Source: Spinactinospora alkalitolerans (GTDB lineage Bacteria > Actinomycetota > Actinomycetes > Streptosporangiales > Streptosporangiaceae). From it: a stretch of DNA of 64,000 nucleotides. The translations under genes were made by a program, and so were the position numbers. The number at the start of each line of letters is the position of its first letter. The stretch's first letter is position 1. The notes under the pieces are model-generated. The model did not search any database and had not been told where the DNA came from. It worked only from the letters and a program-made list of their open reading frames with translations. Positions 1-34,599 of the stretch are shown here, piece after piece. Where the stretch lies: NCBI RefSeq assembly GCF_013408795.1, contig NZ_JACCCC010000001.1, positions 5,766,001 to 5,830,000 of the forward strand, written 5' to 3'.

Positions 1-399
1 CCTCCACGTGCGTGGAGAACAGGGCACCGTTGCTCTCACGGATCAGCCCTCCACGGTCGTCCATGCGGTTCACCTCCACGTGCGTGGAGAACAGCGTTCC
101 CTCCGCACGCGGCCGGATTCCAGCAGCGGTTCACCTCCACGTGCGTGGAGAACAGGAAGGACACCCGATGTACACATTGGCAGCGGTCGGTTCACCTCCA
201 CGTGCGTGGAGAACAGACCAGGCGCTCGCACTCGAAGTCGAGCGCGATCGGTTCACCTCCACGTGCGTGGAGAACAGCGCCAGGCCACCATCCTGGGCGC
301 CCACGACAGCGGTTCACCTCCACGTGCGTGGAGAACAGGGTACTCAGCGGCCCGTGATCGGCTACACCTCCGGTTCACCTCCACGTGCGTGGAGAACAG
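1..399 (-). CRISPR. Type I-E-like CRISPR array, leader-proximal end (6 full repeats, 1 partial)
   Basis: Six identical 29-nt repeats lie at 66-94, 127-155, 188-216, 249-277, 310-338 and 371-399, and a partial one at 1-22. On the plus strand each begins CGGTTCACC and ends GGAGAACAG, around the near-palindrome CTCCACGTGCGTGGAG. Five spacers are exactly 32 nt, so the period is 61, as in subtype I-E. The spacer at 23-65 is 43 nt. Read on the minus strand, the repeat ends GTGAACCG, which parallels the 8-nt crRNA handle ATAAACCG of E. coli I-E. That orientation puts the leader at the right, and the array continues leftward out of the window. No cas gene is seen here. The subtype is inferred from repeat and spacer geometry only. 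Confidence 0.97.
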
Positions 400-470
400 A
401 CTTGTTGACCTGCGATTTCACAAAAGCACATTACCGTTTTCATGTCTAAGTTCAACGAACCGGGAACGGT
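400..470 (-). promoter_or_regulatory. Probable CRISPR leader with promoter
   Basis: The DNA right of the last repeat is clearly richer in A and T than its surroundings. On the minus strand a -35-like TTGAAC (455-450) and a -10-like TAATGT (433-428) are 16 nt apart, so transcription would begin near 421 and enter the first repeat at 399. This fits the orientation deduced from the repeat. The boxes are partial matches, so the promoter is an inference. Confidence 0.45.
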
Positions 471-3022: not shown

Positions 3023-4330
3023 TCATGGTGACGTTGCGGGTGGTCTAACTCGCCGTCTGACAGCGCCGTCCGGGAGGACCACTCGACCACCGTCCGGCAC
3101 GGGCTTGTTGCCGATCACGCCGATGTTCCAACGAACGAGCGCTCCCGACTTGTTGCGTCGTCTGATGTACTCGAGCATCAGGTCCCGGGCCGCGTCGACC
3201 GTCTTCGGGTGGAACCTGTAAGCGTCGACGAAATCGAGCACCGGCTGCAACGAGACACCGCGCCAGAGCGCTCGGCCGGGCGCGAAGTCGGGGTCGGCCC
3301 GTCCCTCACGGTTCGCCTCCGCCAGCAGCGCTCTGACGGCGGTCGCGTTGGCCGCATGCCATTTTCTCGTCTTCCCCGGTCTTCTGACATGGGAAATACC
3401 GGTTCTCCACCAGTTGGCCGCCGTAAAGGCCGCCGCGCGTACGGCGTTCTTGGATTTCGAGGGTGCGGTGACGCGCATCTTCGGGTGGGTGCGGATTCTC
3501 ACCGCCATATCGATAAGGTGCCACGCTCGGTGAGGTGCCGATCGATCTCCCGGCGCATCTCCGCCTCGACGGTGGCCAGGTGGGTGAACCATCGACGCCT
3601 CTCCTCGGGCATGAAGATCCGCGGCAGGTCCTCGTACCCGGGCCGATATCCGAACCAGCGCCCCATCTGGAGGAGGGAGTCGTAGACGCTGGAAGAACGG
3701 ACGAAGTAGCTGACGACCAGGCCTTCCAGAGTCAGTCCTCACGAAGAGGTGTTGCCGCCGACCGCGATCACGTTGACGGGACCGGAGTCGTAGTCGAGAC
3801 GGTCGTTGCTCCGGTAATGGTCCATGACGATGATCGTCGTGAAGCGACATCCCCGAGTCGGGGGAGGATCTCGTCGAAGTCGAGCACGGTGTTGTTCCAC
3901 GACGCGGGGTCGCCCCTGCCTGCCTCCTCCTCCCACAGGACTCGCAGCTCGTCGATCACATCGGTGTGTTCGAACAGCCACGGGCGACTTCGCCGCACAA
4001 GGCGTTGAGTACCGGCCCGTAAGAGTCGTGGACACGGGTGTCCGAGTGCGCGTGGATCAACATCGAGGAGTGTTGACCGCTTTGACCGCGGACATGCCTG
4101 GCGGCAGTGGCCAACCAGAACCGGAGGACGACGCGGCGGAGGGAAGCCGTGGCTCGAGGAGCGAATCCCGCAGCGGCGGCCCTGCTCGCCGGTCGGAGAC
4201 TGCTCAGCTCATCGGCGGGCACGGTCCTGATCATGTCGAGCCCGCCGGGGACCTCCCCGTCCAGGGGGTTGCGTCCGAACAGGGTCTCCGGCTCTCGGCG
4301 TCCGAGTCAGGTGGGGAGGCACCTCGGGTA
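3023..4330 (-). pseudogene. Z1-domain endonuclease, C-terminal half, heavily broken
   Basis: Recognisable Z1-family segments run in order on the minus strand: ETLFGRNPLDGEVPGGLDMI (about 4270), ALR-like VVLRFWLATAARHVRG (about 4130), LFEHTDVIDELRVLWEE (about 3970), VNVIAVGGNT (about 3760), LTLEGLVVSYFVRSSSVYDS and LLQMGRWFGYRPGYEDLPRI (3730-3630), then RVRTHPKM-like sequence to 3023. They lie in several frames, with shifts near 3970, 3850 and 3520. A TGA at 3739-3741 replaces the arginine expected in NTxSRGLTLEG. The N-terminal half is absent: the dcm stop is only about 150 bases away. Z1 proteins accompany Dcm/Vsr genes in some restriction clusters, so this appears to be the dead nuclease partner of the methyltransferase upstream. 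Confidence 0.82.
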
Positions 4331-4485: not shown

Positions 4486-5682
4486 TCATCTTCGGATCGT
4501 CTGTGGCAGTTCACGGCGAACGGTGCCGACGACGCCGGCGGCCTGCCGAGTCGTCGGGTTCACGGTCTCCACGGAGCGGCGAGCGCGTACGGCGGGCGCC
4601 GGAAAGGAAGCGTCGCCGTTCTCCGGGCGTGGGCTGCTGTACGTGGAATCCGTACCGGCCGCTTTCCAGGGAGTTCCGCCGGACACCGCAGCCGTGAGGA
4701 CCTCGTCGCCGAAGTCGAGTGCGGCGGCGAGGACGTGAGCCGCGAGGCGTGGTGGGATGGCGTTGCCGATCTGCTGTGCGATGTCACGACCGGCCCAGGG
4801 ATAGTCGGCCGGGAAGGTCTGCAGCTGTCCAGCCTCGGCGAAAGTGAAGCGGGGACGTTCGAGACCGCCGAGCGTCACCACGCGGTTACGGGAGATCTTT
4901 CCGGTGACGGTGGCAGCAGGCTCGGCGGAAGTGCGCCGGCCCCGAGCCTTGGGATCGCCGCCGGTTCCGTAGTTGGAGACCACGACGAACGGTTCCGATC
5001 GATCGAGTGCGTCGCCCATCGTCACCCATTGCTTCCGCTCCGGGTCTCCGGCGTCCCGGGGCACCCTCTTTCGATAAGGGCGATGGGTCGCCTTGGGCAT
5101 CTCGGCCTTGTCGTTGAGACGAGCGATCAGAATGGCGCGTCGGCGAGTCTGCGGAACCCCGAACTCCTCCGCGCACAGCACCCCGCAGGCCACCGAATAG
5201 CCTCGGCTCTCGAGGGCTTCGCCCACCGCCTTCCACACCGGCAGTACGGCGGGCACCTGCTCCAGCACGATCGCCTCGTAGGGGCGGCCTCTCTCGACCG
5301 CCGCCAGTGCCCACCGTAGGGGCTCCAGCACCAAGGCCGTGCGCTCGTCCTTCAGTTCGGCCAGGTCCGCGGTGACGTCCTCGTCGGCGGCCATTCGCTT
5401 GGCGAAGTGGAGCACATCGTCCAGGGCGCGACGTCCGGCGCCGCTGCCTGCGACGGTATACGTCTGGCACGGTGGCCCGCCCGCGAGGACGGTGGCGTCG
5501 GGAAAATCCGCCGGCCCGAAGGCGCGCACGTCGCCCTCCTCTGTGCGCAGCCCGGCTGCGCGGCGAGTGGCGCAGGCGTCCGCGTCCATCTCGATGCCGA
5601 TCACGGGCACCGTCAGCCAGCATGCAGCCACATCCAGTCCGCCCGGTCCTGCGAACAGATCCACGATCTCGGCGGCGTGCAC
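4486..5682 (-). CDS. dcm: C5-cytosine DNA methyltransferase
   Basis: The 398-residue enzyme would transfer a methyl group from S-adenosylmethionine to cytosine C5 in a specific DNA sequence. Visible motifs are I (DLFAGPGG, residues 8-15), IV (GGPPCQTYT with catalytic Cys72), VI (EQV in place of ENV), VIII (QTRRRAILIA) and X (QQIGNAIPP). A ~70-residue tail without a known domain follows motif X. The GTG at 5682 is preferred because GGAG sits just upstream and motif I starts eight residues in; the longer frame upstream adds low-complexity sequence. It lies between vsr (upstream) and a dead Z1 nuclease gene (downstream), so it may now be a solitary methyltransferase. Methylation could also mark host DNA for the defence operon at 7.1 kb, but that is speculation. 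Confidence 0.93.
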   Translation of the reverse strand: MHAAEIVDLFAGPGGLDVAACWLTVPVIGIEMDADACATRRAAGLRTEEGDVRAFGPADFPDATVLAGGPPCQTYTVAGSGAGRRALDDVLHFAKRMAADEDVTADLAELKDERTALVLEPLRWALAAVERGRPYEAIVLEQVPAVLPVWKAVGEALESRGYSVACGVLCAEEFGVPQTRRRAILIARLNDKAEMPKATHRPYRKRVPRDAGDPERKQWVTMGDALDRSEPFVVVSNYGTGGDPKARGRRTSAEPAATVTGKISRNRVVTLGGLERPRFTFAEAGQLQTFPADYPWAGRDIAQQIGNAIPPRLAAHVLAAALDFGDEVLTAAVSGGTPWKAAGTDSTYSSPRPENGDASFPAPAVRARRSVETVNPTTRQAAGVVGTVRRELPQTIRR

Positions 5683-6283
5683 GTATTCTCCTGGCTGTGG
5701 GGGTGGAGGCGAGTGGTGGCAGAAGAATCTCGTGCGGGCAGTCGCCGCTGTTCCACCCTTGAAGCTCGCCACTGACGGCGACACAGCATATCCCTGTCCA
5801 TGGTGGCCAGCCACCATGGACACCCGGTTCCATGCCCGGTCGGCGCGGCTTCCTCTCGTCGCTCGCCGTCCGGATCCCGTGCTTCATCAGCGTGGCGAGG
5901 CGGCCGTCCTCCGGTCGAGCTTCAAGCGGTTGTCGCACCGGTCGTATGAGACGAAGGTCCCTGGTGAGATCGAACAGGCAGCCTGGAAGCGGTCTGCCGG
6001 TGCGAAGTGGGAGGACTCGGCTCTCCTCGAGAGTCCATCGCCCTTCCGTTCAGTGAGATGGAGCGACTACAGCGGGTCCCGCACGGGCGAATGTCGAAGA
6101 GCCGTCCACGTTTCGGAAGGTCTCGCACGAGTATCCTCAGCACGGCGGAGAACGATTCCGCCGTCACCCTTCGCCGAAGGCGCTGAGACGGTTTCCGGGG
6201 GGACGCCCCCACCTCGGCCAGATGGTCCCGAGAGGTTCCACACGCCCGGAACCGTCGACGGAGATCGCGGCAGACCCGCGGAA
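5683..6283. other. 600-base spacer between vsr and dcm
   Basis: I see no recognisable protein here on either strand, although several GC-driven frames stay open. The spacing is long for two genes that usually adjoin. The stretch may hold the dcm promoter or the remains of a deleted small gene. Confidence 0.4.
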
Positions 6284-6754
6284 TCACGGTTGCGGCCTTT
6301 TCACCGATTGCCGCGAGGCGGTCTCGTACAGAGCGCGTACGCGGGCGGCGGCTTCAAGGGGATCTTCGTGTTCCCAGACACGGAGTACCGCCCACCCTGC
6401 CTCTTCAAGCAGGCGATCCGTCTGTCGATCACGTTCGCGATTCGCCTCGACCTTGGACGCCCAGTATTCGGCGTTGGCCTTGGCGACCGTGTGGTGTTCG
6501 GGGCACCCGTGCCAAAAGCATCCGTCGAGGAACACGGCCAACCGTGCACGAGTGAATACGAGGTCTGCCGTGCGCCTGACAGAAGGAATCGGTCGGAAGG
6601 AGACACGGTATCGGAGACCCATGGCATGAATCGCGCGCCGCAAGGCCAGCTCGGGCTTGGTGTCACGCCCCTTGTTGGACTGCATGCTGCGTCGCGTGCC
6701 GGGAGTGGAAGCCCACGATGTGCCCGGGGCATTGCGCTTGGTGTGTCCGGTCAT
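6284..6754 (-). CDS. vsr: Very-short-patch-repair (Vsr) endonuclease
   Basis: Vsr nicks DNA 5' of T in T:G mismatches that arise when 5-methylcytosine deaminates at Dcm sites, so it protects the methylated genome from mutation. The 156-residue product has the family signatures TPGTRRSMQSNKGRDTKPE near residue 17, FLDGCFWHGCPEH near residue 79 and VWEHE near residue 124. Length is normal for the family. The ATG at 6754 is preceded by GAGGAA. It stands upstream of dcm on the same strand, as expected for a Dcm/Vsr pair, although 600 bases separate them. It is transcribed away from the large defence operon, so the two share a divergent upstream region. Confidence 0.94.
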   Translation of the reverse strand: MTGHTKRNAPGTSWASTPGTRRSMQSNKGRDTKPELALRRAIHAMGLRYRVSFRPIPSVRRTADLVFTRARLAVFLDGCFWHGCPEHHTVAKANAEYWASKVEANRERDRQTDRLLEEAGWAVLRVWEHEDPLEAAARVRALYETASRQSVKRPQP

Positions 6755-7123: not shown

Positions 7124-10100
7124 GTGACGATGAAGCGTACCGAGTGGATCCCCGACGCGGGGCTGGTCCGTGAGGTCGACGACCTCTTCGGGCGGGCGAT
7201 CGATTCATACCGTGCTAATCCGAACCTGATTGCGGAGCACGCCAACCACGAGGAGTCCATCCGGGTCGGCGGTTACTCCAGCCGCACGCTCCTGGAACTG
7301 GTGCAGAACGCGGCCGACGCCATGTCGGGAGCTGACGAGCACGAGGAGGGAGCCGGGCGGGTCGAGATCGTCCTTGACCTCGACCACCAGACTCTGTACT
7401 GCGCGAACGCCGGTCGCCCGTTCTCGCGGAGTGGCCTCACCGCGATCGCTCACGCACACCTCAGTGGCAAGAGGGGCGACGAGATCGGGCGGTTCGGACT
7501 CGGGTTCAAGTCGGTGCTCGCCGTCACCGATGCTCCGCAGGTCTTCAGCCGATCGATCTCCTTCGAGTTCAATTCGACCAAGGCGAAGGAGACGATCGCG
7601 TCGATCGGGTCGGCGGCCAAGAGGTTCCCGGCCTTGAGAACCGCGACGCGGATGGATGCTCAGGCCGAGTTCACCAAGGACCCGATCCTGGCCGAGCTCG
7701 CGGAGTGGGCGGTGACGATCGTCAGGCTGCCGCACGCGTCGAAGCTGGAGAACCTCAAGAAGGAGATCGAGGAGTTCCGCTCCGAGTTCCTCCTCTTCGT
7801 CAACGCGGTGCGTGAGGTCCGGCTCCGGGTGATCGGGACGGACGAAGACTTCGTGACGAGCCATGTGTCGCGTGACCTCGGCGACGGCAGGTTCCGGATC
7901 GAACGTCCCGATGGTGACCACGATGAGTGGTACGTCGAGAACCGGATGCATGCACCCAGCTCCGAGGCTCGGGCCGAGGTCGGTGAAGCGGTGTCGCGCG
8001 ACCAGGTGAAGGTCACGGTCGCCATGCCGGCGCGCTTCGCCCAGAGGAGGACGGGCGAGTTCTGGTCGTACTTCCCGCTTCAGGACAAGACCTCTGCATC
8101 CGCCCTTTTCAACGCTCCCTGGAGCGTCAACGACGACCGCACCACGCTGCTCGAGAACACCTACAACCGAGAGATCCTCGTGACTCTCTCGGAGATGTTC
8201 GTCGACATGCTGCCGAAGGTCTCGTCTGTCGACGATCCGGCTGCGCACTTGGACTACATGCCGGCGCGTGGTCGTGAGGCCCACTCGTTCGGCGACGAGA
8301 TCCTCTGTGCCCACGTCCCGCAGATCGGGGCCGAGACGGCGCTGATCCCCGACGCGACGGGCGTCATGTGCACGCCGCAGGATCTCCGTCCTCTCGACTT
8401 CACCGTCAGTGACACGTCCGAGAGTGACCACGAAGAGTGGATCAAGTCACCCAACACCGGCGACGACGTTCCGCACTGGCGTTGCTACGTCAACAACCAG
8501 CGTGTGACTCGTCTGCGGCAGCTCTACGTCTACAAGTTCTCCTCTGCCTTCCCGGACCGACGGTCCAGGGACGAGATGAAAGCGCTGGAGGAGATGCCCA
8601 AGAGAGGCGTCCTGTCGTGGCTGCGTGAGTGGGCAGAGGGAGCCGACATGGACTCTGCCGCGAGGGCACTCGACTTCGTCCTGATGAACCCCAAGATCGA
8701 CGGCATCAGGTCTGCGAAGGTCATCCCGACGACCAGCGGGATGCGGTCCGTCAATGATCGTAACGAGGTCTTCCTCAAGCGTGTGGACGACGTCGACATC
8801 GAAGGAGCGAGTTTCGTCCACCCGGGTTTCCTGGCGATCCCCGGCATCGAGAAGAAGCTCCGTGAGAAGGCCGGGTTCCGGGACCTGGATCCGCTCGCGA
8901 TCCTCCAGGCCAGGCTGGGCAAGCTGTCTCCTGCGTCGGGAGACGAGGAACTCTCGAAGTTCTGGGACGCGGTCCTCGACGTACCCATGGACCAGGCTCG
9001 GAAGGTCGTGTCCCGCGACACGGCAGGCTGCATCAAGGTACCGACGCGCGACGGCGGCTGGTCTTCGCCCAGGCACGTGTTGGACATCGACGGGCTCGGT
9101 GACGGCATTCGAATTCGAATGTTGGACCGGACGAGGTGCGTTCCGCAGGTCGCGCATGCAGCAGGGGTCATCCATGCTGCGGTGTCCGTGTACTCGGTCG
9201 AGGACGAGGTCCACTTCGAGGACTACCACCAGTACGTCATAGACGAGCTCAACCGGAGGCTCGGGCCTGGAGAGCGCCCCGTCGAACGGATCGAGTTCGA
9301 CAGGAACGACGGCCCCGGTCCCTTCTCGACGCTCCTCATGCTGAAGGAGGCACAAGCACCGGACCAGGTCCGTGAGACGTGGACGGTTCATCTGCTCGCC
9401 TTCGATAAGGGGGACGACTGGACCTGCGAGGACATCGACACGGGCCAGACCCACCGAGTCGTCTCCCCTGTTCGATGGGCAGCGGAGCGGGCAGGGTTGG
9501 TGCGGTCGACTCGCGGCTACCGGGCTCCGGGCCGGGTCGTGTCTGCGTCGCTCGTCGAGTTCGAGGCCCTGCTGCCGCTCTTCCGCGGACCGCGCCCTGT
9601 CGAAGACGCTCTGGCGCTGCCGAAGGAACTGGACAAGGTTCCCGCCGACGTGCTGCGTGAAGCGCTCGAGGCGGAGCTCATCCCCTCGCAGGTCAAGGAC
9701 GGCACTCTGACGGAATTCGTCCTCGTCGCCGGCGGGATCGCGTTCCCCGACGGGCACCCGGTGCTCATCCCTGCCCGGGTGGGACGCGGCATCGAGGCGA
9801 GGCGGCCTGACACGGTGTACTTGGCGACCACCGAGGAAGAACGTACTTTCCTCGCTTCGCGGCACAAGCCGTACCTCCGGGCAGATCAAGATCAGGTGGA
9901 CCTGCTCGTCGAAGCGGTCGGATGTCGCCGGTTCGAGGACAGCTTCTCCTTCTCCCTGCTGGCCGAGGGCCGGCAGGACGGGGAGCGCGTCATCGACTTG
10001 TACACCGGACTCCGTTCGACGTTCGCGGAGGACAAGGTCATGAACGCGACCGTGGCGAAGGCCGTCCACATCGCGAAGCGCGTGACCACCGAGGACGGCG

Positions 10101-11848
10101 TCGAGGACCAGTCGCTCGAGTGGCACCTGGACGGGCTGACGCTCGTGGTCCGCGCGGACCTCGACGAACGGCGTGTCCTCGAGATCCTCAACGAGGCATT
10201 CGACTTGAGGCTGTCGAACGCCGAGCTGAGCGATGTCCTTCAGGCAGGCGTGGACCAGCGTCTGGAGGAACAGCGGCAGGAAGCCCGTGTCGCCTCCAGT
10301 GATGCAGAGCGTCTCGAGGTGTTCTTCGGCGAGGACACGCTGAAGGAGAAGCTGCCGAAGGGACTCTGGCAGGCGCTCGAGGGACAGGACCTGGTGGACG
10401 ACTCGACGTCCGTCGCGAAACTCTTCCTGACCGTCTACGGCAGCGACTCGATCCGGCTCCTCGAAGACCAGTTCCGTAACGAGGGATACACGGACGTTCC
10501 GACGACGTGGGCGGGCGGCGCACCGACGATCGCCTGGCTTCGGAAGATGGGGTTCGGCACCGAATACGCCGGACGTCGGAGCCAGCGCCAGGACGACGAG
10601 TTCGTCGTGCCCGGTGCCGTGAAGCTCAACCCTCTGCACAACTTCCAGAAGCACATCAGTCGGCAGCTGCAGGATGTGTTGACGCTCCAGGAGCCGAACG
10701 GTCGCGCGCTCAAGGGCATGGTCGAGCTTCCGACGGGAGCCGGGAAGACCCGTGTCGCCACCGAGACCGTGCTGCGACTCTTCATCGGCGGCGGAATGCG
10801 CGGAACGGTGCTCTGGGTCGCGCAGTCGGCCGAGCTTTGCGAGCAGGCGGTGCAGACCTTCAGCACCGTTTGGCGCGGGCTCGGCGATGAACGTCCGTTG
10901 ACGATCGGTCGGCTCTGGGAGAGCAACACCGTCCACGAGCCCGACACCGAATTCAGCGTGATCGTGGCCACCGACGCCAAGCTCGAGACCGTGATCGACA
11001 CCCCTGCGTATGAGTGGCTGAGCCGAGCCTCTGCCGTCTTCATCGATGAGGCACACCGTGCCGGCGGATCGAAACGGTACACGCGAATCCTGAGGTGGCT
11101 CGGTGTCGACGGCCGTAGTTGGGAGCGGCCTCTGGTGGGTCTCTCGGCGACCCCGTTCAAGGGGAAGATCGACGACGGAGAGCCGACGAAGGAACTGGCG
11201 GCTCGTTTCGGTAACCGCAAGATCAAGGCCTTCGAGGGCAACGCCTACGAGGAGCTGTCGCGGATCGGCGTCCTCGCTCGGGTCAAGCACGAGGTGCTGC
11301 CGGGCATCGACGTCGACCTGAAGCCGGAAGAACTGAAACACGTGCAGTCCAAGGGCAAGCTCGAGCCTCAGGTGCTCGACCGCATCGGCCGAGACCAGGC
11401 ACGAATAAAGGCTCTCGTGAACCACATTCTGAGCCAGGACCCCGAATGGCCCATCCTCGTGTTCACGCCGAACGTCCTGTCCGCCCAGGTCCTTGCCGCG
11501 ACGCTTCGTTATCGGCAGATCGAAGCCGCAGCGGTCAGCGGTCAGACCGGACGGCAAGAGCGCCGCGACATCATCGAGAAGTTCAAGAACGGCGATATCC
11601 AGGTTCTGGCGAACTGCGACCTGCTGATCCAGGGCTTTGACGCACCTGGTGTCCGAGCTCTGTACATCGCGAGACCGACGTTCAGCCCCAGCGCATACAT
11701 CCAGATGGCCGGCCGCGGGCTGCGCGGTCCCGCGAACGATGGCAGTAAGGAGTGCCTCATCGTGGACGTCGCCGACAACTTCGGGGCGGTCAACGACTTT
11801 CTCGGGTATCGCGCCTACGAGGACCTCTGGCTGGAGCAGGGAGCATGA
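7124..11848 (+). CDS. Sacsin-type GHKL ATPase fused to SF2 DEAH helicase (defence operon gene 1)
   Basis: A 1574-residue protein of two parts. The N-terminus is a HSP90-like (GHKL) ATP-binding module of the sacsin kind: LLELVQNAADAM with the Mg-binding Asn near residue 58, YCANAGRPFS, and IGRFGLGFKSVL near 121-132. About 1000 residues of unassigned sequence follow. The C-terminus is a superfamily 2 helicase: Walker A VELPTGAGKTR near 1200, FIDEAHRAG near 1305, SATPF near 1340 and IQMAGRGLRG near 1525. It probably works on phage DNA with the next three genes, the role held by DrmD in class 1 DISARM, but the GHKL module is not part of DrmD. The GTG at 7124 fits GAGGCGG seven bases upstream; an in-frame ATG lies at 7088. 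Confidence 0.85.
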   Translation: MTMKRTEWIPDAGLVREVDDLFGRAIDSYRANPNLIAEHANHEESIRVGGYSSRTLLELVQNAADAMSGADEHEEGAGRVEIVLDLDHQTLYCANAGRPFSRSGLTAIAHAHLSGKRGDEIGRFGLGFKSVLAVTDAPQVFSRSISFEFNSTKAKETIASIGSAAKRFPALRTATRMDAQAEFTKDPILAELAEWAVTIVRLPHASKLENLKKEIEEFRSEFLLFVNAVREVRLRVIGTDEDFVTSHVSRDLGDGRFRIERPDGDHDEWYVENRMHAPSSEARAEVGEAVSRDQVKVTVAMPARFAQRRTGEFWSYFPLQDKTSASALFNAPWSVNDDRTTLLENTYNREILVTLSEMFVDMLPKVSSVDDPAAHLDYMPARGREAHSFGDEILCAHVPQIGAETALIPDATGVMCTPQDLRPLDFTVSDTSESDHEEWIKSPNTGDDVPHWRCYVNNQRVTRLRQLYVYKFSSAFPDRRSRDEMKALEEMPKRGVLSWLREWAEGADMDSAARALDFVLMNPKIDGIRSAKVIPTTSGMRSVNDRNEVFLKRVDDVDIEGASFVHPGFLAIPGIEKKLREKAGFRDLDPLAILQARLGKLSPASGDEELSKFWDAVLDVPMDQARKVVSRDTAGCIKVPTRDGGWSSPRHVLDIDGLGDGIRIRMLDRTRCVPQVAHAAGVIHAAVSVYSVEDEVHFEDYHQYVIDELNRRLGPGERPVERIEFDRNDGPGPFSTLLMLKEAQAPDQVRETWTVHLLAFDKGDDWTCEDIDTGQTHRVVSPVRWAAERAGLVRSTRGYRAPGRVVSASLVEFEALLPLFRGPRPVEDALALPKELDKVPADVLREALEAELIPSQVKDGTLTEFVLVAGGIAFPDGHPVLIPARVGRGIEARRPDTVYLATTEEERTFLASRHKPYLRADQDQVDLLVEAVGCRRFEDSFSFSLLAEGRQDGERVIDLYTGLRSTFAEDKVMNATVAKAVHIAKRVTTEDGVEDQSLEWHLDGLTLVVRADLDERRVLEILNEAFDLRLSNAELSDVLQAGVDQRLEEQRQEARVASSDAERLEVFFGEDTLKEKLPKGLWQALEGQDLVDDSTSVAKLFLTVYGSDSIRLLEDQFRNEGYTDVPTTWAGGAPTIAWLRKMGFGTEYAGRRSQRQDDEFVVPGAVKLNPLHNFQKHISRQLQDVLTLQEPNGRALKGMVELPTGAGKTRVATETVLRLFIGGGMRGTVLWVAQSAELCEQAVQTFSTVWRGLGDERPLTIGRLWESNTVHEPDTEFSVIVATDAKLETVIDTPAYEWLSRASAVFIDEAHRAGGSKRYTRILRWLGVDGRSWERPLVGLSATPFKGKIDDGEPTKELAARFGNRKIKAFEGNAYEELSRIGVLARVKHEVLPGIDVDLKPEELKHVQSKGKLEPQVLDRIGRDQARIKALVNHILSQDPEWPILVFTPNVLSAQVLAATLRYRQIEAAAVSGQTGRQERRDIIEKFKNGDIQVLANCDLLIQGFDAPGVRALYIARPTFSPSAYIQMAGRGLRGPANDGSKECLIVDVADNFGAVNDFLGYRAYEDLWLEQGA

Positions 11849-13362
11849 TCCTCGTTCCGGACCTCGCCGACATCGAGACGACGACCACCAGCAGCGCCGA
11901 GCGTCGGGTCGCGCGCCTGCTGCAGTCGGTCGACGGGCCCAGCGACGCGGTCGCCTTCCACTCCGTCAAGTTGCGAAGCCACGCGGTCAAGCAGCAGGGA
12001 GAGGCGGACTTCGTCGTTCTCTGGGACGGAATCGTGATCCTCATCGAGGTCAAGGGAGGGGGCGTCAGGAAGTACGACGGCGTCTGGTACAGCATCGACC
12101 GCCACGGTGACTGGAAGAAGTTGCGTGAATCTCCGATGGACCAGGCGCAGTCGGCGATGTACGCGTTGCGGGGCATCCTGCGCGAGGAAGGTGTCGGTTG
12201 GTTCGCGACCGAGGCCGTTGCCGTCACGCCTGACATCGATGCCCCTCCTCCTGCCGTCGAGTGGAAGGGGAGCCACTGGTGGGCCAAGGACCAGATGAGC
12301 ATCGCTGGAATGACGAAAGCCTTTGAAGAGGTCGCCGACGAGGCCAGGACCGCCCCCTTCGGGGTCAAGATCGCGCGGTCCGAGCATCTTCGGGCTCGCC
12401 TGTTCGGTGAGTTCACGCGGATGCCCGTCATCGATGCGCAGCGTGGCGCCGTCATCGAGGAACAGAACCGAGCGACCGATGGCCAGGCCCGGGTTCTGGC
12501 CGCGCTCTCGCGCAACCCGAGGATGCTCGTCTTCGGTGGTGCGGGTACCGGGAAGTCTCTGGTGCTGGCAGAGGCTGCGAAGCAGGAGGCGGGCGAGGGG
12601 AAGTCGGTTCTCATCACCTTCCACTCGCCTTCCCTGGTCGACTTCTTCGGCCCGCGGATCGTGGGGAGAGACATCGATCTCCTTCCGTTCGCCGACCTGT
12701 CCGGTGACAAGCAGTACGACGCCGTCTTCGTCGACGAGGCACAGGACCTCATGAACGCCGCCGGCATGGACGCACTGGACGCCGTGATCCGCGGAGGTCG
12801 AGCGGGCGGCCGGTGGAGGATGTTCCTCGACCCCAACAACCAGGCACGCGTGGACGGCGAGTTCGATCCCGACGTGTGCGAGCTGGTGCAGCAGGAGGCG
12901 CTCCAGTACGACCTCGACCGGAACGTTCGCAACACCCGGGCGATCGTCCACGTCGTGCAGGAGTACCTCGGCGCTGACGTCGGAGACCCGGGCATCGTCC
13001 ACGGTGACCGAGTTCAGTGGCGGTGGACCGAGGGGACGGCCGACGTCGCGGCGGCCGAGGCCGTGGCTCGAGACCTCGTCGGGAACGGGGCTCGCCGCGA
13101 GGACATCTGGATCATCAGCGTCTCCGCAGATGCCGAGCCGCGAAGGAGCAGGGCCGGATTCCTCGTGACGAACCCGCGGTTCACCAAGGGGCTGGAAGCA
13201 GAGCACGTCATCGTCTGCGATCTGCCGCAGGAATACGACGACCGGGGACTGGCCGCGTTCTACGTGGCCGTCACGAGGGCCCGAGTCACGCTCCACGTGA
13301 TCGCTTCCAAGGAAGACAAGAAGCGGCTCCAGGACCTTCTTCGAGAGCAGGTTGGCAAGTGA
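11845..13362 (+). CDS. NERD nuclease-domain / SF1 (UvrD-like) helicase (defence operon gene 2)
   Basis: The product has 505 residues. The N-terminal NERD domain (nuclease-related, PD-(D/E)XK-like) spans roughly residues 15-130, with GEADFVVLWDG and ILIEVKGG supplying the expected acidic and E-x-K residues. A superfamily 1 helicase follows: Walker A FGGAGTGKSLVLAE near 230, Walker B VFVDEAQDL near 294 and the C-terminal UvrD-like FYVAVTRARVTLHV near 472. It is shorter than UvrD proteins, so the accessory 1B/2B insertions must be small. The ATG overlaps the stop of gene 1 (ATGA), which indicates translational coupling. It likely unwinds and cuts DNA within the defence complex. It is not a component of the standard DISARM sets. 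Confidence 0.88.
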   Translation: MILVPDLADIETTTTSSAERRVARLLQSVDGPSDAVAFHSVKLRSHAVKQQGEADFVVLWDGIVILIEVKGGGVRKYDGVWYSIDRHGDWKKLRESPMDQAQSAMYALRGILREEGVGWFATEAVAVTPDIDAPPPAVEWKGSHWWAKDQMSIAGMTKAFEEVADEARTAPFGVKIARSEHLRARLFGEFTRMPVIDAQRGAVIEEQNRATDGQARVLAALSRNPRMLVFGGAGTGKSLVLAEAAKQEAGEGKSVLITFHSPSLVDFFGPRIVGRDIDLLPFADLSGDKQYDAVFVDEAQDLMNAAGMDALDAVIRGGRAGGRWRMFLDPNNQARVDGEFDPDVCELVQQEALQYDLDRNVRNTRAIVHVVQEYLGADVGDPGIVHGDRVQWRWTEGTADVAAAEAVARDLVGNGARREDIWIISVSADAEPRRSRAGFLVTNPRFTKGLEAEHVIVCDLPQEYDDRGLAAFYVAVTRARVTLHVIASKEDKKRLQDLLREQVGK

Positions 13363-16300
13363 AGCTCGCAGCGGCCCAGCAGGAGGCGCTGAAACACCTC
13401 CGCGCGTCCTACGAGGGGCCTGAGGCGGGGGACGAGGAGGTCACGGCGAACCTGCCTCACCGGCAGTATGCCGTCGGCATGCTGTTCCCGAGCGAGACCG
13501 TGGCTCGTGGTTCTCATGACGGCGAGGACGCGGATGAAGAGGTCTCCGCCGACGTCCCCGACGGCGATGTCGAGGAGGACGGCGCCGGGATCCCCCTGGC
13601 CGAGGACTGGCGGCCCTCGTCGGTCGCGATCTCCTTCGTCACCGACGGCGACTCCGTCGACGTCGACTTCTCGTGCGGCACGTACGCCGCTGTCGACGGA
13701 GACGGACCGCCGAGGTGGCGTCGTACCCCGTTCTCTGCAGACGACCTCGTTCTCCGTCGGGGAGAAGGGCCCGTCGCTCTGGACGTAGGAGACGTTCCTG
13801 TCGAGGTCGGGGCACGTTGGCGCGATTTCAAGGGTGACTCCTTGGTCACGGTGCACGTCCGGGTTCTGACCGAATCCACGAGAGACGACCGACTCGACAT
13901 CGCTCGGATGCTGTTCCAGGTTCGGCTGGCCGTCGCTCCTTCCGCAGGTGCGCAGATCCTGGAGTACGACACGACGCGCTCGTTCGACGCCGATCCGGAA
14001 ACCGCCGAGCTGCGCCTGCGATACCGCAACAGAAAGGTCTACGCGGTCGGGCACGGCATGGCTGCGGACTGGGAGTTCACGGCGGGCCGCTGCACCAGGG
14101 CCTTCCTCGACCCGATACCGGCCTTCGTCGTGCCCGCCGTCGAAACCACGGGGTTCGACGAGGGGACGGCCGAGGCCAAGTCCTTGGAGCTGGAGCACCT
14201 CCAGCAGGTCGACACGGATCCCGATGCGGTACTTCGGTCGCTGGACGCCTTTGTCGACGCCTTCGCCGGGTGGGCTGCCGAACAGATGGAACGAGCAGAG
14301 GCCTTCGGCGATGACAAGGCCGTGGCGATCCGGATCGCCGAGCGTTCTCAGGATGCCGTCGACAGGATGAGGGAAGGCGTGAACCTCCTCCGGGCGCCGG
14401 GACGGCAAGACCTGCGAACGGCTTTTTCGCTCGGCATGGCTGCCATGCGTCTGCAGATGCGGCAGGCATCGATCAACCGCGGGGGGTCGGAAGGTCGGGT
14501 GCCGGAGCCGCGGTGGCGCCCGTTCCAGCTCGGTTTCCTGCTCGTCTCGTTGGCATCCACCGTTGACGTGACGCACAAGGATCGGGACCTCGTCGACCTC
14601 ATCTGGTTTCCGACCGGTGGCGGCAAAACCGAGGCATACCTCGGTCTCGCCGCGATCGAGATCTTCCGTCGGCGGCTTGCTCATGACGTGGCCGGTGGAG
14701 GGACCGCCGTGATCACCCGGTACACATTGCGGCTCCTGACCTCTCAGCAGTTCCAGCGTGCTGCGGCGCTGGTTTGCGCAATGGAGAAGCTGCGGGCCAC
14801 GGACGAACGAGTGAAAGGGATGGTGCGGTTCTCGATCGGTCTCTGGGTGGGCAACGAAGTCACCCCTGGCACGCGCAGAGAGGCGCGGAGTGCGCTCGAG
14901 CGTCTGCAGAAGGCCGCGCGTCCGGAAGAGGCGAACCAGTTCCAGGTCGAGAGCTGTCCGTGGTGCCTGACGCCGTCGGTGCCGAAGGCCAAGAGCAACA
15001 AGCCGCAGGACTATGGCATGCGCCTGGTGGGAAACGACGTCGTACTCCATTGCGTCGACGAATCGTGCGCGTTCAGCGGCGAACTTCCGCTCGCGGTCGT
15101 CGACGAGGTTCTGTACGACGAACCGCCCACGATCCTGCTGGCCACCGTCGACAAGTTCGCGCGTCTGCAGTTCAGGCCCGAAGCCGGCAGGCTGCTCGGG
15201 ATCGGGACCGCCTTCGAGCAGCCGTCCATGGTCATCCAGGATGAGCTGCACCTGCTCTCGGGGCCGCTCGGGACCACTGTCGCCGTCTTCGACGCAGTCA
15301 TCCAGCTCTTGCTGAGCCGTTCCGGCGCCAGCCCCAAGATCATCGCGTCGACTGCCACCATCCGTGCGTCCGAGGAGCAGGTACAGGGACTGTACGGGCG
15401 TGACGTCGCCCTGTACCCGCCATCAGGGCTCGACGACGACCGCACCTTCTTCTCTCGCCCCGTGGAGAGTGGAGAAGGACGTCTCTACGTCGGCCTGATG
15501 CCGCAGTCGGTCTCTCAGCCGTCGGCCGTCATCGCGGCGGTCACTCCGATGGTGGAGATGCCGGAGGCGCTCGCTGCCCGTGTTCCGTCTGCCGCATCCC
15601 GAGATGCGTACTGGACACTGGTCATGTACCACAACAGTCTTCGTGAGCTCGGCCGGACGGGGACGCTGGTCGTCGACGACGTCAACGGCCGTCTGGAGCC
15701 TCGCGCCGATCGGCTCGGCTTCCCGCTGCGTCCTGTCAGGGCGGGGAAGGTCTTGGAATTGACGAGCCGCCGCGGAGCCGAGGAGCTACCGAAGGATCTC
15801 CGTGCGCTTCGAGTCAGGGCCGACGAGACGTCGGACGCCGTCGACGTGGTCCTCTCGTCGAACATGCTCTCCGTCGGCATCGACATTCCGAGGCTCGCCC
15901 TGATGCTCATGGTGGGACAGCCGAAGACCACGGCCGAGTACGTTCAGGCCACCAGCCGTGTCGGGCGCGGAGACACGAAGGGCGTCGTCGTCACGCTTTT
16001 CAGGTCGAGCAGGGCCCGCGATCGGTCGCACTTCGAGACTTTCCGTGGCTACCACGAGGCTCTCTACCGCAGCGTGGAGCCCACGAGCGTGACGCCATGG
16101 TCGTTGGCCTCGCGCGACCGATCTCTCGCCGGCGCACTCGTCGCATTGCTGAGGCAGTCGTTCGGCCCGCTCGCCGACAACGACGCGGCAGGTCGGTTCG
16201 ACCTCGAGGACGACAGGATCAGCGACGCGGTCGAGCGACTCGTCGAGCGGTTCCTCGGGTACGTGACGCGTGCCGATCGCCTCGAAGCCGAGGAGACGAG

Positions 16301-16538
16301 CGACGCCGTGTGGAGCCTGCTGAGGGACTGGGACCGTCGGGCGGCACAAGCACGCGAGTCGGGCGACTCCTTGTACTACGAGCGTTCGGAGAAGGAGCAG
16401 GCGGCTCTGTTGAAGAGATTCGGTCAGCCCGGCGAAGGGTGGCTCGTCGGAGACTCGATGAGATCCGTCGAGCCCAACGTGGCGGTCGAGGTCCGGGAAC
16501 CGCAGGAAGAGGTGCACCGTGGAGAAGATCAGGCATGA
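13359..16538 (+). CDS. drmA: DrmA/YprA-like SF2 helicase (defence operon gene 3)
   Basis: The 1059-residue protein resembles the central helicase of DISARM. The helicase core carries WFPTGGGKTEAYLG near residue 415, TRYTLRLLTSQQF shortly after, an unusual motif II VIQDELHLLSGPLGT near 625 (DELH in place of DEAH), ASTATIRAS near 662 and ATSRVGRG near 864. A Cys-rich insert (CPWCLTP ... CVDESCAF) between motifs I and II resembles a zinc-binding element. The first 350 residues have no domain I can name. The GTG at 13359 overlaps the previous stop and has AGAGCAGG upstream. In DISARM, DrmA works with DrmB as a DNA-loaded complex; the same pairing is seen here. The symbol is by similarity and the exact YprA clade is undetermined. 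Confidence 0.87.
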   Translation: MKLAAAQQEALKHLRASYEGPEAGDEEVTANLPHRQYAVGMLFPSETVARGSHDGEDADEEVSADVPDGDVEEDGAGIPLAEDWRPSSVAISFVTDGDSVDVDFSCGTYAAVDGDGPPRWRRTPFSADDLVLRRGEGPVALDVGDVPVEVGARWRDFKGDSLVTVHVRVLTESTRDDRLDIARMLFQVRLAVAPSAGAQILEYDTTRSFDADPETAELRLRYRNRKVYAVGHGMAADWEFTAGRCTRAFLDPIPAFVVPAVETTGFDEGTAEAKSLELEHLQQVDTDPDAVLRSLDAFVDAFAGWAAEQMERAEAFGDDKAVAIRIAERSQDAVDRMREGVNLLRAPGRQDLRTAFSLGMAAMRLQMRQASINRGGSEGRVPEPRWRPFQLGFLLVSLASTVDVTHKDRDLVDLIWFPTGGGKTEAYLGLAAIEIFRRRLAHDVAGGGTAVITRYTLRLLTSQQFQRAAALVCAMEKLRATDERVKGMVRFSIGLWVGNEVTPGTRREARSALERLQKAARPEEANQFQVESCPWCLTPSVPKAKSNKPQDYGMRLVGNDVVLHCVDESCAFSGELPLAVVDEVLYDEPPTILLATVDKFARLQFRPEAGRLLGIGTAFEQPSMVIQDELHLLSGPLGTTVAVFDAVIQLLLSRSGASPKIIASTATIRASEEQVQGLYGRDVALYPPSGLDDDRTFFSRPVESGEGRLYVGLMPQSVSQPSAVIAAVTPMVEMPEALAARVPSAASRDAYWTLVMYHNSLRELGRTGTLVVDDVNGRLEPRADRLGFPLRPVRAGKVLELTSRRGAEELPKDLRALRVRADETSDAVDVVLSSNMLSVGIDIPRLALMLMVGQPKTTAEYVQATSRVGRGDTKGVVVTLFRSSRARDRSHFETFRGYHEALYRSVEPTSVTPWSLASRDRSLAGALVALLRQSFGPLADNDAAGRFDLEDDRISDAVERLVERFLGYVTRADRLEAEETSDAVWSLLRDWDRRAAQARESGDSLYYERSEKEQAALLKRFGQPGEGWLVGDSMRSVEPNVAVEVREPQEEVHRGEDQA

Positions 16539-18321
16539 CCTGCGCCTCTCCGAGACGATCTCGCCCTTCGGTGTCGGAGCGATCGTCGACGTCCGAGGCG
16601 AATCTCTCATGGCGCCGGACACGTCCTGGTGGGACAAGAAATACGCTCAGGAGATCAGCTGTGAGCGTCTGATGGCCCGCCTCGGGGCCGGTGTCCTGAG
16701 ACAACCGCCGACGCATGCGAGCCGTGCCGGTAAGGAAACTCCTGCGTTGCCGTACTGGCGCTTCCCTGCATGGCGGTTCTGCGAGCGCTGCGACAAGCTC
16801 TCGAAGCTGACCGGGAAGAAAAAGGGCAAGTGGAGCAACACCTGCGAGTGCGGTGGCCTGCTGGTGCCGATGCGATACATCGCCATCTGCGAAAAGGGCA
16901 GCCACGTTCAGGACATCAGCTGGTTCCGGTGGGTGCATCGTGGGCGTGCGGCGAGCCTGAACGAAGCAGTCCGGTTCTGCCGTGACTACAAGTCGCTCAG
17001 GTTCAGGAGACTGGCCAATCGTGGTGAGGGCCTCGCATCACTGATGGTCAAGTGTCATGGGTGTGGGAACTCGCGCACCCTCGCGGAACTCGTCACGAAC
17101 GGGGCTCTGCAGCGAGACGGGATCCGCTGCGCGGGGCGGCAGCCCTGGGAACCGGAAGGCTCGGTCAAAAAGCCTTGCCCGCATCAGCTGGTCGCCGTGC
17201 AGCGCGGTGCCACGGGTAACTACATCGCCGAGAGGATCTCGGCTCTCGACATACCGGAAGAACGTCCGCAGTCGGCGGAAGCGGCAGACCAGATCCGTGG
17301 GCATGTGTACTTCGAGAAGGTCGTGACGGACAACGGCGGCCCCCAGGCGCAGATGGTGGCAGGGTGGATCGCCGAGGAGCTCGGAGTGACGCCGGAGACC
17401 GTTCTCGCCGTGGCAGGAGGAGAGGAGACAAGCGCGGACGAGATGCTGCTCGACCTCAAGGACGGTGAGTGGGCGGCATTCCTGAAGAAGCTCGATGGCG
17501 GGCGCGACCGTACGGGGAGCGACTTCGTCGTCGACGGGCGAAGCCTCGAAGGCGTCGCGGGACCGCAGAGCCTCCTCAGCAAGATCAGGGGGATCGGGCA
17601 GGTGCGTCGGGTCCGTGAGGTCCGTGCCCTCCGTGGATTCCGGCGGCACGATGCGGACGCGGCCATGATCAACGCCGATCTGGGACCAGACCAGTGGCGT
17701 CGGCCCACCTATCCGGCGATCGAGCTGTTCGGAGAAGGGATCTTCCTGCGGTTCGACGAGGAGAAACTCGCCGAATGGGAGGCGCAGCCGGAGGTGCAGG
17801 CACGCGCCGGCATCCTCAAGAAGCGCAGAGTCGACTCTGCATGGGCCGGCCGCCTCGACGTGCCCGAGCCCAGGTACATCGCCCTGCACACGCTGGCGCA
17901 CCTGCTCATCCGTCGGCTGGCGTTCGCAAGCGGTTATGCGTCCGCCGCGCTGCAGGAGCGGATCTACGCGAACTCCGACCGTACCGACAAGACCGCCGGG
18001 ATCCTGATCTACACCGCAGCGGGAGATGCTCAGGGGACTCTCGGCGGGCTCGTCAGGCTCGGAGAGCCTGACAAGTTGATCCCGCTCCTGGTGTCAGCCC
18101 TGGACGACGCAGACTTCTGTTCCAACGACCCGGTCTGCATCGAGAGTGACCGGCAGGGGGCCTCGCAGCTGAACCTCTCGGCTTGCCACGGCTGCTCCCT
18201 GGTGAGCGAGACCTCCTGCGAGACCGGAAACCGACTGCTGGATCGACAGCTGGTCCTGGGCGGAAGCGACGTGAGGGGACTGCTGGACGACGTTCTGACG
18301 GAGGTCCGGCGGCCCAGATGA
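16519..18321 (+). CDS. drmB: DrmB-like DUF1998 protein (defence operon gene 4)
   Basis: The 600-residue protein starts with the DrmB-like LRLSETISPFGVGAIVDV. It has paired Cys clusters suited to zinc binding (CERCDKL near 90, CECGG and CEKGSH near 112-130, CHGCGNS near 180) and ends with the DUF1998 signature CHGCSLVSETSCETGNRLLD. DrmB partners DrmA in DISARM. The GTG overlaps the end of gene 3 by 20 bases, so the two are almost certainly co-translated. After its stop come only IS relics: there is no phospholipase-D-like drmC, which normally follows drmB in DISARM. Either the operon is complete as a four-gene variant, or a 3' gene was lost when the ISL3/IS3 elements arrived. Confidence 0.87.
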   Translation: MEKIRHDLRLSETISPFGVGAIVDVRGESLMAPDTSWWDKKYAQEISCERLMARLGAGVLRQPPTHASRAGKETPALPYWRFPAWRFCERCDKLSKLTGKKKGKWSNTCECGGLLVPMRYIAICEKGSHVQDISWFRWVHRGRAASLNEAVRFCRDYKSLRFRRLANRGEGLASLMVKCHGCGNSRTLAELVTNGALQRDGIRCAGRQPWEPEGSVKKPCPHQLVAVQRGATGNYIAERISALDIPEERPQSAEAADQIRGHVYFEKVVTDNGGPQAQMVAGWIAEELGVTPETVLAVAGGEETSADEMLLDLKDGEWAAFLKKLDGGRDRTGSDFVVDGRSLEGVAGPQSLLSKIRGIGQVRRVREVRALRGFRRHDADAAMINADLGPDQWRRPTYPAIELFGEGIFLRFDEEKLAEWEAQPEVQARAGILKKRRVDSAWAGRLDVPEPRYIALHTLAHLLIRRLAFASGYASAALQERIYANSDRTDKTAGILIYTAAGDAQGTLGGLVRLGEPDKLIPLLVSALDDADFCSNDPVCIESDRQGASQLNLSACHGCSLVSETSCETGNRLLDRQLVLGGSDVRGLLDDVLTEVRRPR

Positions 18322-33791: not shown

Positions 33792-34550
33792 TCACACCAC
33801 TGCTTGGTCGAATCGTCCTTGCTGGCCCCATTGCTTGATCAACCGGCCCCAGCGGTCCTTGTGGTCGAAGCGGGCCGCGATCTCGCGGCCGGTGGGGAGG
33901 GAGCCGTCTTCGTGGCGGTTGGCCAGGGCCCAGTGCCAGGCCTCGATCTGGACCCGCGGCACTGCATCCGACGGGTTCACGGTCTCCGTGGTAACGGCCA
34001 CCCCAGGCTCGTCCGCTGCTTCTACCACGTGCAGGCGCGGGCGACCGTCAACGTGGTGAGACAGCACGCCTTCGTGCTCGGCTTGAGCGGGCGCCTCCGA
34101 CGCGGCCGATTCGGCCTCGGACGGGCGTGCGGCCTGCTCATCGTCGGCGTTCGCCGTGCGTACGTCATGGGCGTCGATGCGGAACTCGCGCATGAGCAAC
34201 TCGTAGGCACCCATCAGAGCGAACGACGGCCAGGCGTGGATCACTCGCGACCACAGGGTGGGGTCGGCCACCGCGATGTTGGCCGCGAGGCTGGCGACAC
34301 TGCCCAGGACGAGCAGCGTCCAGGGGAGCAGGCCGCCGCGCCGACCGTGTCTGGCGTCGGTCAGCAGCGCCATGGATGAGGCGACGATCATCCCGTCTAC
34401 GGAGAGGGGAAACAGGGCCGCGCGCCAGGCGGGTTCGCCGTGGCGCTGGGCCAGCTCGTACATATGCGAGTAGGAGACCACCGCGGCGATGACGGCCAGC
34501 ATGAAGACGGCGGCGATGGTTGTCCAGCGGGACCAGCGGGAAGAATCCAT
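33792..34550 (-). CDS. DUF2637 (SpdB-like) membrane protein
   Basis: The 252-residue protein has about four transmembrane helices in the first 125 residues (TTIAAVFMLAVIAAVVSY; FPLSVDGMIVASSMALL; WTLLVLGSVASLAANIAV; WPSFALMGAYELLMREF). An acidic linker follows, then a conserved tail, HEDGSLPTGREIAARFDHKD and RWGRLIKQWGQQGRF. The tail looks like a DNA-binding winged-helix end. DUF2637/SpdB proteins belong to actinomycete conjugative plasmids and integrative elements. A frameshifted near-copy lies at 991-1744. A serine recombinase relic adjoins it, but no transfer gene does, so it is probably a stranded remnant that is still intact. Confidence 0.85.
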   Translation of the reverse strand: MDSSRWSRWTTIAAVFMLAVIAAVVSYSHMYELAQRHGEPAWRAALFPLSVDGMIVASSMALLTDARHGRRGGLLPWTLLVLGSVASLAANIAVADPTLWSRVIHAWPSFALMGAYELLMREFRIDAHDVRTANADDEQAARPSEAESAASEAPAQAEHEGVLSHHVDGRPRLHVVEAADEPGVAVTTETVNPSDAVPRVQIEAWHWALANRHEDGSLPTGREIAARFDHKDRWGRLIKQWGQQGRFDQAVV

Positions 34551-34599
34551 TCCAGGTCACCGCCCGTCCAGCGCGAAGGATGTGGACAGCACCAGGGGT

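Follow-up and report, generated by a model that had tools for sequence, protein, structure and literature searches.

We analyzed a window of 64,000 nucleotides from Spinactinospora alkalitolerans (positions 5766001-5830000 of its 6.68-Mb single-contig genome) that contains an operon of four genes. They code for SacSF2, in which a sacsin-type ATPase is fused to a superfamily 2 (SF2) helicase, for NERD-SF1, in which a nuclease is fused to a superfamily 1 (SF1) helicase, and for relatives of DrmA and DrmB, two proteins of the DISARM (defense island system associated with restriction-modification) systems (Table 1). All three gene junctions overlap, by ATGA at 11845, by GTGA at 13359 and by 20 bases at 16519-16538. 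The open reading frames (ORFs), the profile matches and these junctions agree with the original prediction, made from the letters of the window, as to the four genes and their families.

TABLE 1 Features of the operon and of the divergent genes upstream of it, in window coordinates
Feature	Position	Strand	Description and basis
SacSF2	7124..11848	+	GHKL ATPase module of the sacsin/Hsp90 type, then an arm of ~800 residues and a RadD-like SF2 helicase at the C terminus; 1574 amino acids
SacSF2 middle arm, residues 380-1190	8261..10693	+	AlphaFold model, predicted local distance difference test (pLDDT) 86.7, predicted template modeling score (pTM) 0.56
NERD-SF1	11845..13362	+	NERD nuclease joined to an SF1 helicase; 505 amino acids
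NERD active-site residues D55, E68-x-K70	12007..12054	+	invariant in 31/31 aligned sequences
DrmA relative	13359..16538	+	YprA-type SF2 helicase; 1059 amino acids; profiles, PDB 7s9v, trees
DrmA acidic loop, ~residues 53-85	13515..13613	+	HMMER alignment with the trigger loop (176-232) of Serratia DrmA
DrmB-family protein	16519..18321	+	MrfA-type Zn-binding (DUF1998) domain; profile matches
Vsr (very short patch repair) endonuclease	6284..6754	-	divergent; profile and linkage
C5 cytosine DNA methyltransferase	4486..5823	-	divergent; ORF as listed, true start probably internal

The SacSF2 gene was taken to start at a GTG, an ATG at 7130 being also conceivable. Its N terminus matched the sacsin ATP-binding model NF047352 with 73.9 bits (cut-off, 50), and its C-terminal helicase matched ResIII and Helicase_C over their cut-offs as well as RadD in the PDB (6jde, E = 1e-15). 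The ATPase and helicase motifs are kept, with no stops, in the window protein and 28 homologues (29 sequences). When the middle arm was compared with the PDB in Foldseek, no match reached E<=0.001, and thus no known fold was recognized there.

The NERD domain of the second protein scored 36.8 bits (cut-off, 22.1). Pfam scores for the helicase part were near the cut-offs (Viral_helicase1, 22.8 over 21; UvrD_C_2, 26.3, just below 27.4), and the SF1 assignment is based on these two families, the conserved motifs and a structure model (pLDDT 85.2). In Foldseek, the model matched SLFN11/SLFN14, Dna2, Upf1 and RecD2 with E values down to 1e-14. Query template modeling scores reached at most 0.46 among the 50 matches listed, so that these proteins and NERD-SF1 have a common core rather than one fold. 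The best PADLOC model for NERD-SF1 was a NERD-helicase of the reverse transcriptase-associated kind (56.3 bits). The PD-(D/E)XK-like nuclease domain noticed earlier is hence a NERD domain with an invariant active site, and the three helicase engines announced with it are the RadD-like SF2, SF1 and YprA-type SF2 motors of the first three proteins.

The DrmA relative scored 634 bits with the PADLOC DrmA model and matched Serratia DrmA (7s9v) with an E value of 2e-143, and DrmB scored 418.5 bits with NF038324, over the cut-off of 240; these homologies justify the label DISARM-like given in the original prediction. The residues of the window DrmA that align with the Serratia trigger loop form a short, highly acidic segment, which may be functionally equivalent to that loop. 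As reported in the part of PMC9142583 available to us, DrmAB binds single-stranded DNA and 5' overhangs by structure rather than by sequence, gated by the trigger loop, and DrmC is dispensable and often missing.

The recurrence of the operon was assessed with an alignment of six SacSF2 proteins, which was searched against 84,980 species genomes. The best 80 of the 447 relatives represented 65 distinct genome loci, all actinobacterial by their titles, a sample that favors close relatives and is not a census. The loci were chosen by SacSF2 alone, and the other three core genes played no part in the search. Core genes were counted by tblastn, as the greedy gene caller misses many of the SF1 genes overlapping other frames. 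The SF1 helicase was present at 64/65 loci (60 of the NERD type and 4 of the UvrD type), DrmA at 65/65 and DrmB at 64/65. All four genes were present in order at 63 of the 65, the outcome of the conserved-order search proposed with the original prediction. The two exceptions are L103, where the contig ends, and L134, a Cryobacterium locus with DrmA directly after SacSF2 and no SF1 helicase. A 66th locus, the IMG/VR viral-collection contig L139, ends right after a 38% SacSF2 homologue, and its partner genes cannot be judged.

Hypothesis-free clustering of the 1172 genes called at the 66 loci, with counts kept low by the greedy gene calls, returned SacSF2 (65 loci), DrmA (63), DrmB (60) and NERD-SF1 (47, under-called) as the top families. 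They were followed by a C5 methylase at 38 loci and Vsr at 28; the next most recurrent family was found at 10. Pairwise distances of the four core proteins correlated at 0.96-0.99 overall and, within the close group alone, at 0.85-0.94 (1711-2016 distances from nonindependent pairs, for which no significance is claimed; the SF1 proteins used were those of the NERD type, from 60 loci). The four-protein core thus seems to be inherited as one unit. This matched divergence, the overlapping genes and the presence of all four at 63/65 loci argue against two neighboring systems, one a helicase pair like Tiamat or Gabija, made of SacSF2 and the SF1 protein, and the other a separate DrmAB pair, even though the SacSF2 N terminus matches TmtA models, the SF1 protein weakly matches GajB, and DrmAB is found with other partners elsewhere. 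We regard such an arrangement as highly improbable.

To place the DrmA relative as the original prediction had proposed, 101 DrmA proteins were collected, of which 55 entered a first tree and 31 a second, with many near-duplicates left out and the long-branch rows L146, L147, L155, L156 and L071 removed from the second. In the 55-protein tree, 36 of the 37 SacSF2-associated DrmAs fell in two places, each with good support. Group A (25 rows) includes the window, has a NERD-SF1 gene in most cases, and adjoins DISARM-like operons of Streptomyces fungicidicus, Photobacterium and Deinococcus gobiensis. Group B (11 rows) has a UvrD-type SF1 gene and adjoins Tsukamurella. The 37th, from genome G366 (locus L071), stands apart on a long branch. 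A single vertical lineage of the SacSF2-associated DrmAs was rejected by the approximately unbiased (AU) test, with 17 such rows constrained in the 31-row tree (log-likelihood difference, 238.5; p-AU, 1.1e-24); the group had been named before the test and after the first tree. The SacSF2 proteins of groups A and B are homologous over their full length, at about 31-35%. As the DrmAs do not form one clade while SacSF2 is homologous throughout, the SacSF2 fusion has apparently been combined with two separate SF1-DrmA-DrmB cassettes, or its cassettes have been replaced. The six class 1 DISARM DrmAs formed a branch of their own (Shimodaira-Hasegawa-like approximate likelihood ratio test supports of 90 and 99), and the window DrmA was outside it; no verified class 2 DrmA was included in the trees.

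The distribution of SacSF2 is patchy. In the window's own family, 42/341 genomes had a match at E<=1e-40, and at least five loci are common to this set and the previous one (L077=G232, L082=G165, L086=G237, L117=G050 and L135=G284). Among the best 80 of the 447 relatives, the window protein was 81% identical in the best segment to that of Streptomyces regalis; in the search of its own family, identity reached at most 72%. This difference suggests transfer. Matches to SacSF2 in a phage collection were confined to the helicase part, in 2 records, and none of the 15 plasmid records with a match at E<=1e-20 reached 80% cover. Carriage by a phage was considered for L139 and set aside, the contig being not convincingly viral; the neighbors of its SacSF2 gene are type I restriction-like genes and, by eye, a transposase-like ORF.

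The surroundings of the operon look like a defense island because of a CRISPR array, Cse1 and a Z1/MzaC remnant nearby. The array, which is type I-E-like, occupies window positions 1-400 and runs on past the left edge; its 29-base repeats, six complete and a seventh truncated at the window edge, mostly follow one another at intervals of 61 bases. Of four Cse1 matches in the genome, one ends ~4.8 kb to the left of the window. The Z1 remnant (~3511-3840, minus strand, within the ORF 3023-3850) shares 65% identity over 110 residues with a Z1 protein whose gene adjoins a relative of the operon. The RadD-like, Dna2-like and MrfA/YprA-like parts all have relatives in repair, and the operon might therefore encode a host DNA repair or recombination machine rather than a defense system. 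Its occurrence in 42/341 genomes only, the sign of transfer, the nearby CRISPR locus and Z1 remnant and the linkage to a DNA methylase all speak against that view, which we find very unlikely.

That methylase is the C5 cytosine methyltransferase that, with Vsr, is located 0.4-2.6 kb upstream of the operon on the opposite strand. It carries the motifs FAGPGG, PCQ, EQV, QTRRR and QIGN, which we read as catalytic, and the helicases, the nuclease and Vsr likewise have their catalytic motifs. The earlier statement that the operon lacks a methyltransferase is correct for the four-gene transcript but not for its surroundings, as C5 methylase and Vsr are directly upstream here and linked in most relatives. 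Vsr was found in 42/42 SacSF2-positive genomes versus 146/299 others of the family (188/341 in all; Fisher p, 1.5e-12, relatedness ignored). It was within 16 kb of SacSF2 in 39/42 genomes, and 41 of all 51 Vsr matches in the 42 genomes are within this distance. With limits of 5, 10 and 16 kb, Vsr was near SacSF2 in 17, 30 and 39 of the 42, the 16-kb limit having been chosen after seeing the data. For the C5 methylase, the same three limits gave at least 17, at least 28 and at least 29 of the 42, which are lower bounds, as the enzyme of the window itself goes undetected by PF00145 at E<=1e-15. By tblastn, C5 methylase or Vsr was present at 39/50 full-flank loci, and a looser ORF criterion found methylase at 47/65 loci. 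The idea that this linkage is a by-product of MZA/Z1 systems was discarded, with Z1 at no fewer than 7/66 loci versus methylase or Vsr at 47/66.

Class 1 DISARM consists of drmD, drmMI, drmA, drmB and drmC, and DrmE is the defining component of class 2. The window resembles DISARM in its adjacent DrmA-DrmB pair, in the DNA methylase nearby and in a DrmA that aligns over most of its length, trigger-loop segment included, with Serratia 7s9v. It differs in the addition of SacSF2 and NERD-SF1 and in a DrmA from another branch. The four operon proteins include no DrmD or DrmMI (MmeI), and no family of such size was seen in at least 5 of the 66 loci, the neighbors not having been searched with a DrmD profile. 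The DrmE profile PDLC02636 matched 0/346 Actinomycetota genomes at E<=1e-20, the window's own included. Phospholipase D (PLD) proteins of the DrmC type (PF13091, E<=1e-5) occurred in 38/42 genomes, none within 16 kb of SacSF2 on the same contig as far as contigs reach and the nearest at 22 kb, which bears out the predicted lack of a PLD protein. The adjacent C5 methylase scored 296.5 bits with MTase_II and 64.0 with the best DrmMII model. An ordinary DISARM subtype with accessory genes lost or replaced would account for the DrmA and DrmB homologues, for a nearby C5 methylase, as at 3/6 class 1 loci, and for the missing DrmC, a nonessential component. The lack of DrmD/MmeI-size, DrmE and nearby PLD genes, together with a DrmA that is outside the class 1 branch (class 2 DrmA being absent from the tree) and under the equivalog cut-off, makes us judge this explanation unlikely. 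Filing the system as DISARM-related and unclassified, rather than as DISARM, appears to be the best reading.

Cassettes like SF1-DrmA-DrmB occur on plasmids of other phyla and of other Actinomycetota. DISARM-like plasmid operons of Deinococcus gobiensis, Rhodococcus opacus, Rhizobium, Azospirillum and Tsukamurella share with the window a NERD- or UvrD-type SF1 gene beside DrmA-DrmB, often a C5 methylase and sometimes Vsr. They differ in that the 15 plasmid records matched by SacSF2 at E<=1e-20 include none of them and in that two have McrC-like DUF2357 genes. Three such operons with NERD- or UvrD-type helicases (L144, L150 and L157) all have a C5 methylase, and the DUF2357 genes are those of L144 and L157. 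A DISARM-like system beside McrBC is mentioned in the part of PMC11090510 available to us.

Other systems with YprA-type helicases were also compared. ARMADA, BRIGADE, TALON and Druantia have Vsr-type or NERD nucleases as partners or fusions, according to PMC12458937 in the part available. In the window, by contrast, helicase and DUF1998 are separate genes, as at all 64 loci that have both, and a domain search found no nuclease domain in DrmA. No BrxHII-PglX, TPR-CSD/TBP or 7-deazaguanine partners were seen among the operon proteins or recurrent neighbors, the latter without dedicated profiles. The DpdJ model scored 26.2 bits versus a cut-off of 800, and Dpd differs further in that the helicase is split here; the deazaguanine genes were not profile-searched. 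TALON is approached by the presence of NERD, which is fused here to an SF1 helicase, while the window DrmA matches DrmA models; TPR-CSD and TBP were not profile-searched. For Druantia, none of the four proteins matched DruE with more than 13.1 bits. The resemblance to Druantia, Dpd and ARMADA noticed earlier therefore stands, whereas these scores and the separation of helicase and DUF1998 do not support membership in any of them.

Tiamat is a single-protein system, for which we take the PADLOC TmtA model to stand. SacSF2 shares with it a sacsin-type N-terminal ATPase (188.5 bits), but the match is limited to residues 28-382, numbered from 7088, and to profile positions 11-358 of 1538, leaving the RadD-like motor unmatched. 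In scans that covered the four operon proteins and five neighboring ORFs, none of the operon proteins matched GajA, and the GajB-like matches of the SF1 protein were weak (31.3 bits at best), which sets the operon apart from Gabija. MZA/Z1 systems are similar in that MZA genes adjoin a C5 methylase and Vsr at some loci and in that an MzaC (Z1) remnant is present in the window, and they differ in that Z1 homologues were found at 7 of the 66 loci, a lower bound. In G366, SacSF2 matches in its helicase part only, and the locus, L071, is differently ordered and MZA bearing, with MzaB, C, D and E matches, a C5 methylase and Vsr adjoining DrmB and a long DrmA. For the nonstandard partner set that the original prediction described, no matching named subtype was found among the PADLOC protein models (models, not system rules), and no description of it was found in searches of open-licence papers or in the part of PMC12458937 available, its supplements apart.

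Taken together, these data point to a defense type related to DISARM but separate from it, directed against foreign DNA and with the methylase as self marker, a reading to which we assign a probability of roughly 0.6. From the domain content and linkage we infer every biochemical step, the self marking and phage or plasmid DNA as the target. In the proposed mechanism, the C5 methyltransferase would mark host DNA, and Vsr would repair the T:G mismatches that arise from 5-methylcytosine, limiting the mutagenic cost. DrmAB, with its YprA-type helicase, Zn-binding canopy and acidic gating loop, would load on exposed single-stranded or tailed incoming DNA. SacSF2, taken as a clamp of the Hsp90/sacsin ATPase type that carries a RadD-like motor, would then recognize or remodel the loaded structure and license the attack. 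NERD-SF1, with its Dna2-type nuclease-helicase build, would degrade the strand, taking the place that DrmC has in DISARM.

A number of observations weigh against this proposal. As its arm has no recognized relative, the role of that part of SacSF2 is a guess. The DrmA relative scored 807.8 bits with NF038325, under the equivalog cut-off of 950. Base composition offers no help: the operon has 65.5% G+C versus 70.6% at 35-64 kb, but its immediate neighbors are similar (64.0-68.8% just to the right, with 64.0% at 25-35 kb, and 65.8-67.2% just to the left), so that composition tells little about transfer and was not used. In 3/42 genomes, no Vsr was on the contig of SacSF2, and in one of these (G050) the locus is at a contig end, and 11/50 full-flank loci had neither C5 methylase nor Vsr by tblastn. 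The distances of methylase and Vsr correlated with those of the core at r values of 0.06-0.16 overall and 0.26-0.57 in the close group. This weak codivergence would also fit mere neighbors in a defense island. Finally, a C5 methylase was found near 3 of the 6 class 1 DISARM plasmid loci fetched, and Vsr near 1, and thus methylase linkage is not special to the SacSF2 system. The three loci in question are L148, which has the Vsr as well, L145 and L149.

Several of these points would be expected if the core worked without the methylase, by sensing structure only, and the C5 methylase and Vsr formed a cassette of their own that lodges in the same islands: the weak correlation at most with the core, the absence of both genes at 11/50 loci, their separate, divergent transcription and the C5 methylases near class 1 DISARM. 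This account overlaps with the one we favor and differs from it in the role of the methylase only, the odds of the two being nonexclusive. The linkage, however, is far above background and unapproached by that of any other family at the 66 loci, and we hold an independent cassette to be somewhat unlikely. The simplest interpretation of the comparisons is an exchangeable methylase-Vsr cassette that would usually travel with a fixed core, as both genes look exchangeable in view of their weak codivergence with it. Methylase swaps without a matching change in the core would fit the recognition of DNA structure, not sequence. A bolder and rather doubtful extension is that of a sequence-blind, structure-sensing destroyer under the sacsin clamp, with methylase and Vsr as freely exchanged plug-in markers and two DrmAB/SF1 cassettes recruited.

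The system bears on how DISARM-type systems discriminate self from nonself, a question posed by a DrmAB that reads DNA structure while a methylase adjoins. A core that seems inherited as a unit, with a linked methylase that is seemingly exchanged, offers a natural experiment on this question. The system has two proteins in common with DISARM, is distinct in its helicase and nuclease partners, and is often accompanied by DNA-marking genes that look exchangeable. The world of YprA helicases would gain an Hsp90/sacsin-type ATPase-helicase fusion, combined with two separate DrmAB lineages.

Group B loci showed some further genes. Several have a small gene of ~210-250 amino acids directly upstream of SacSF2, in either orientation; two examples that were scanned, L064 5457-6122 and L066 5635-6273, had no Pfam family over the cut-off. 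A further UvrD-type helicase follows DrmB at L024 (16915-18996) and L025 (16819-18915). By eye its N terminus is RelE-like, and it resembles the fourth gene of ARMADA type II, as far as that is described in the part of PMC12458937 available. In the window itself, a membrane-protein gene is present in two related copies (996-1763 and 33809-34569; 74.7% DNA identity), presumably DUF2637-like, of which the left one looks frameshifted. Some group B loci, including L024 (787-4714, minus strand), L025 (1681-2613, minus strand) and relatives, have a divergent second operon coding in order for a helix-turn-helix protein with a PADLOC PDC-M33A match, a ~310-amino-acid protein, a DUF6339 protein and a C5 methylase.

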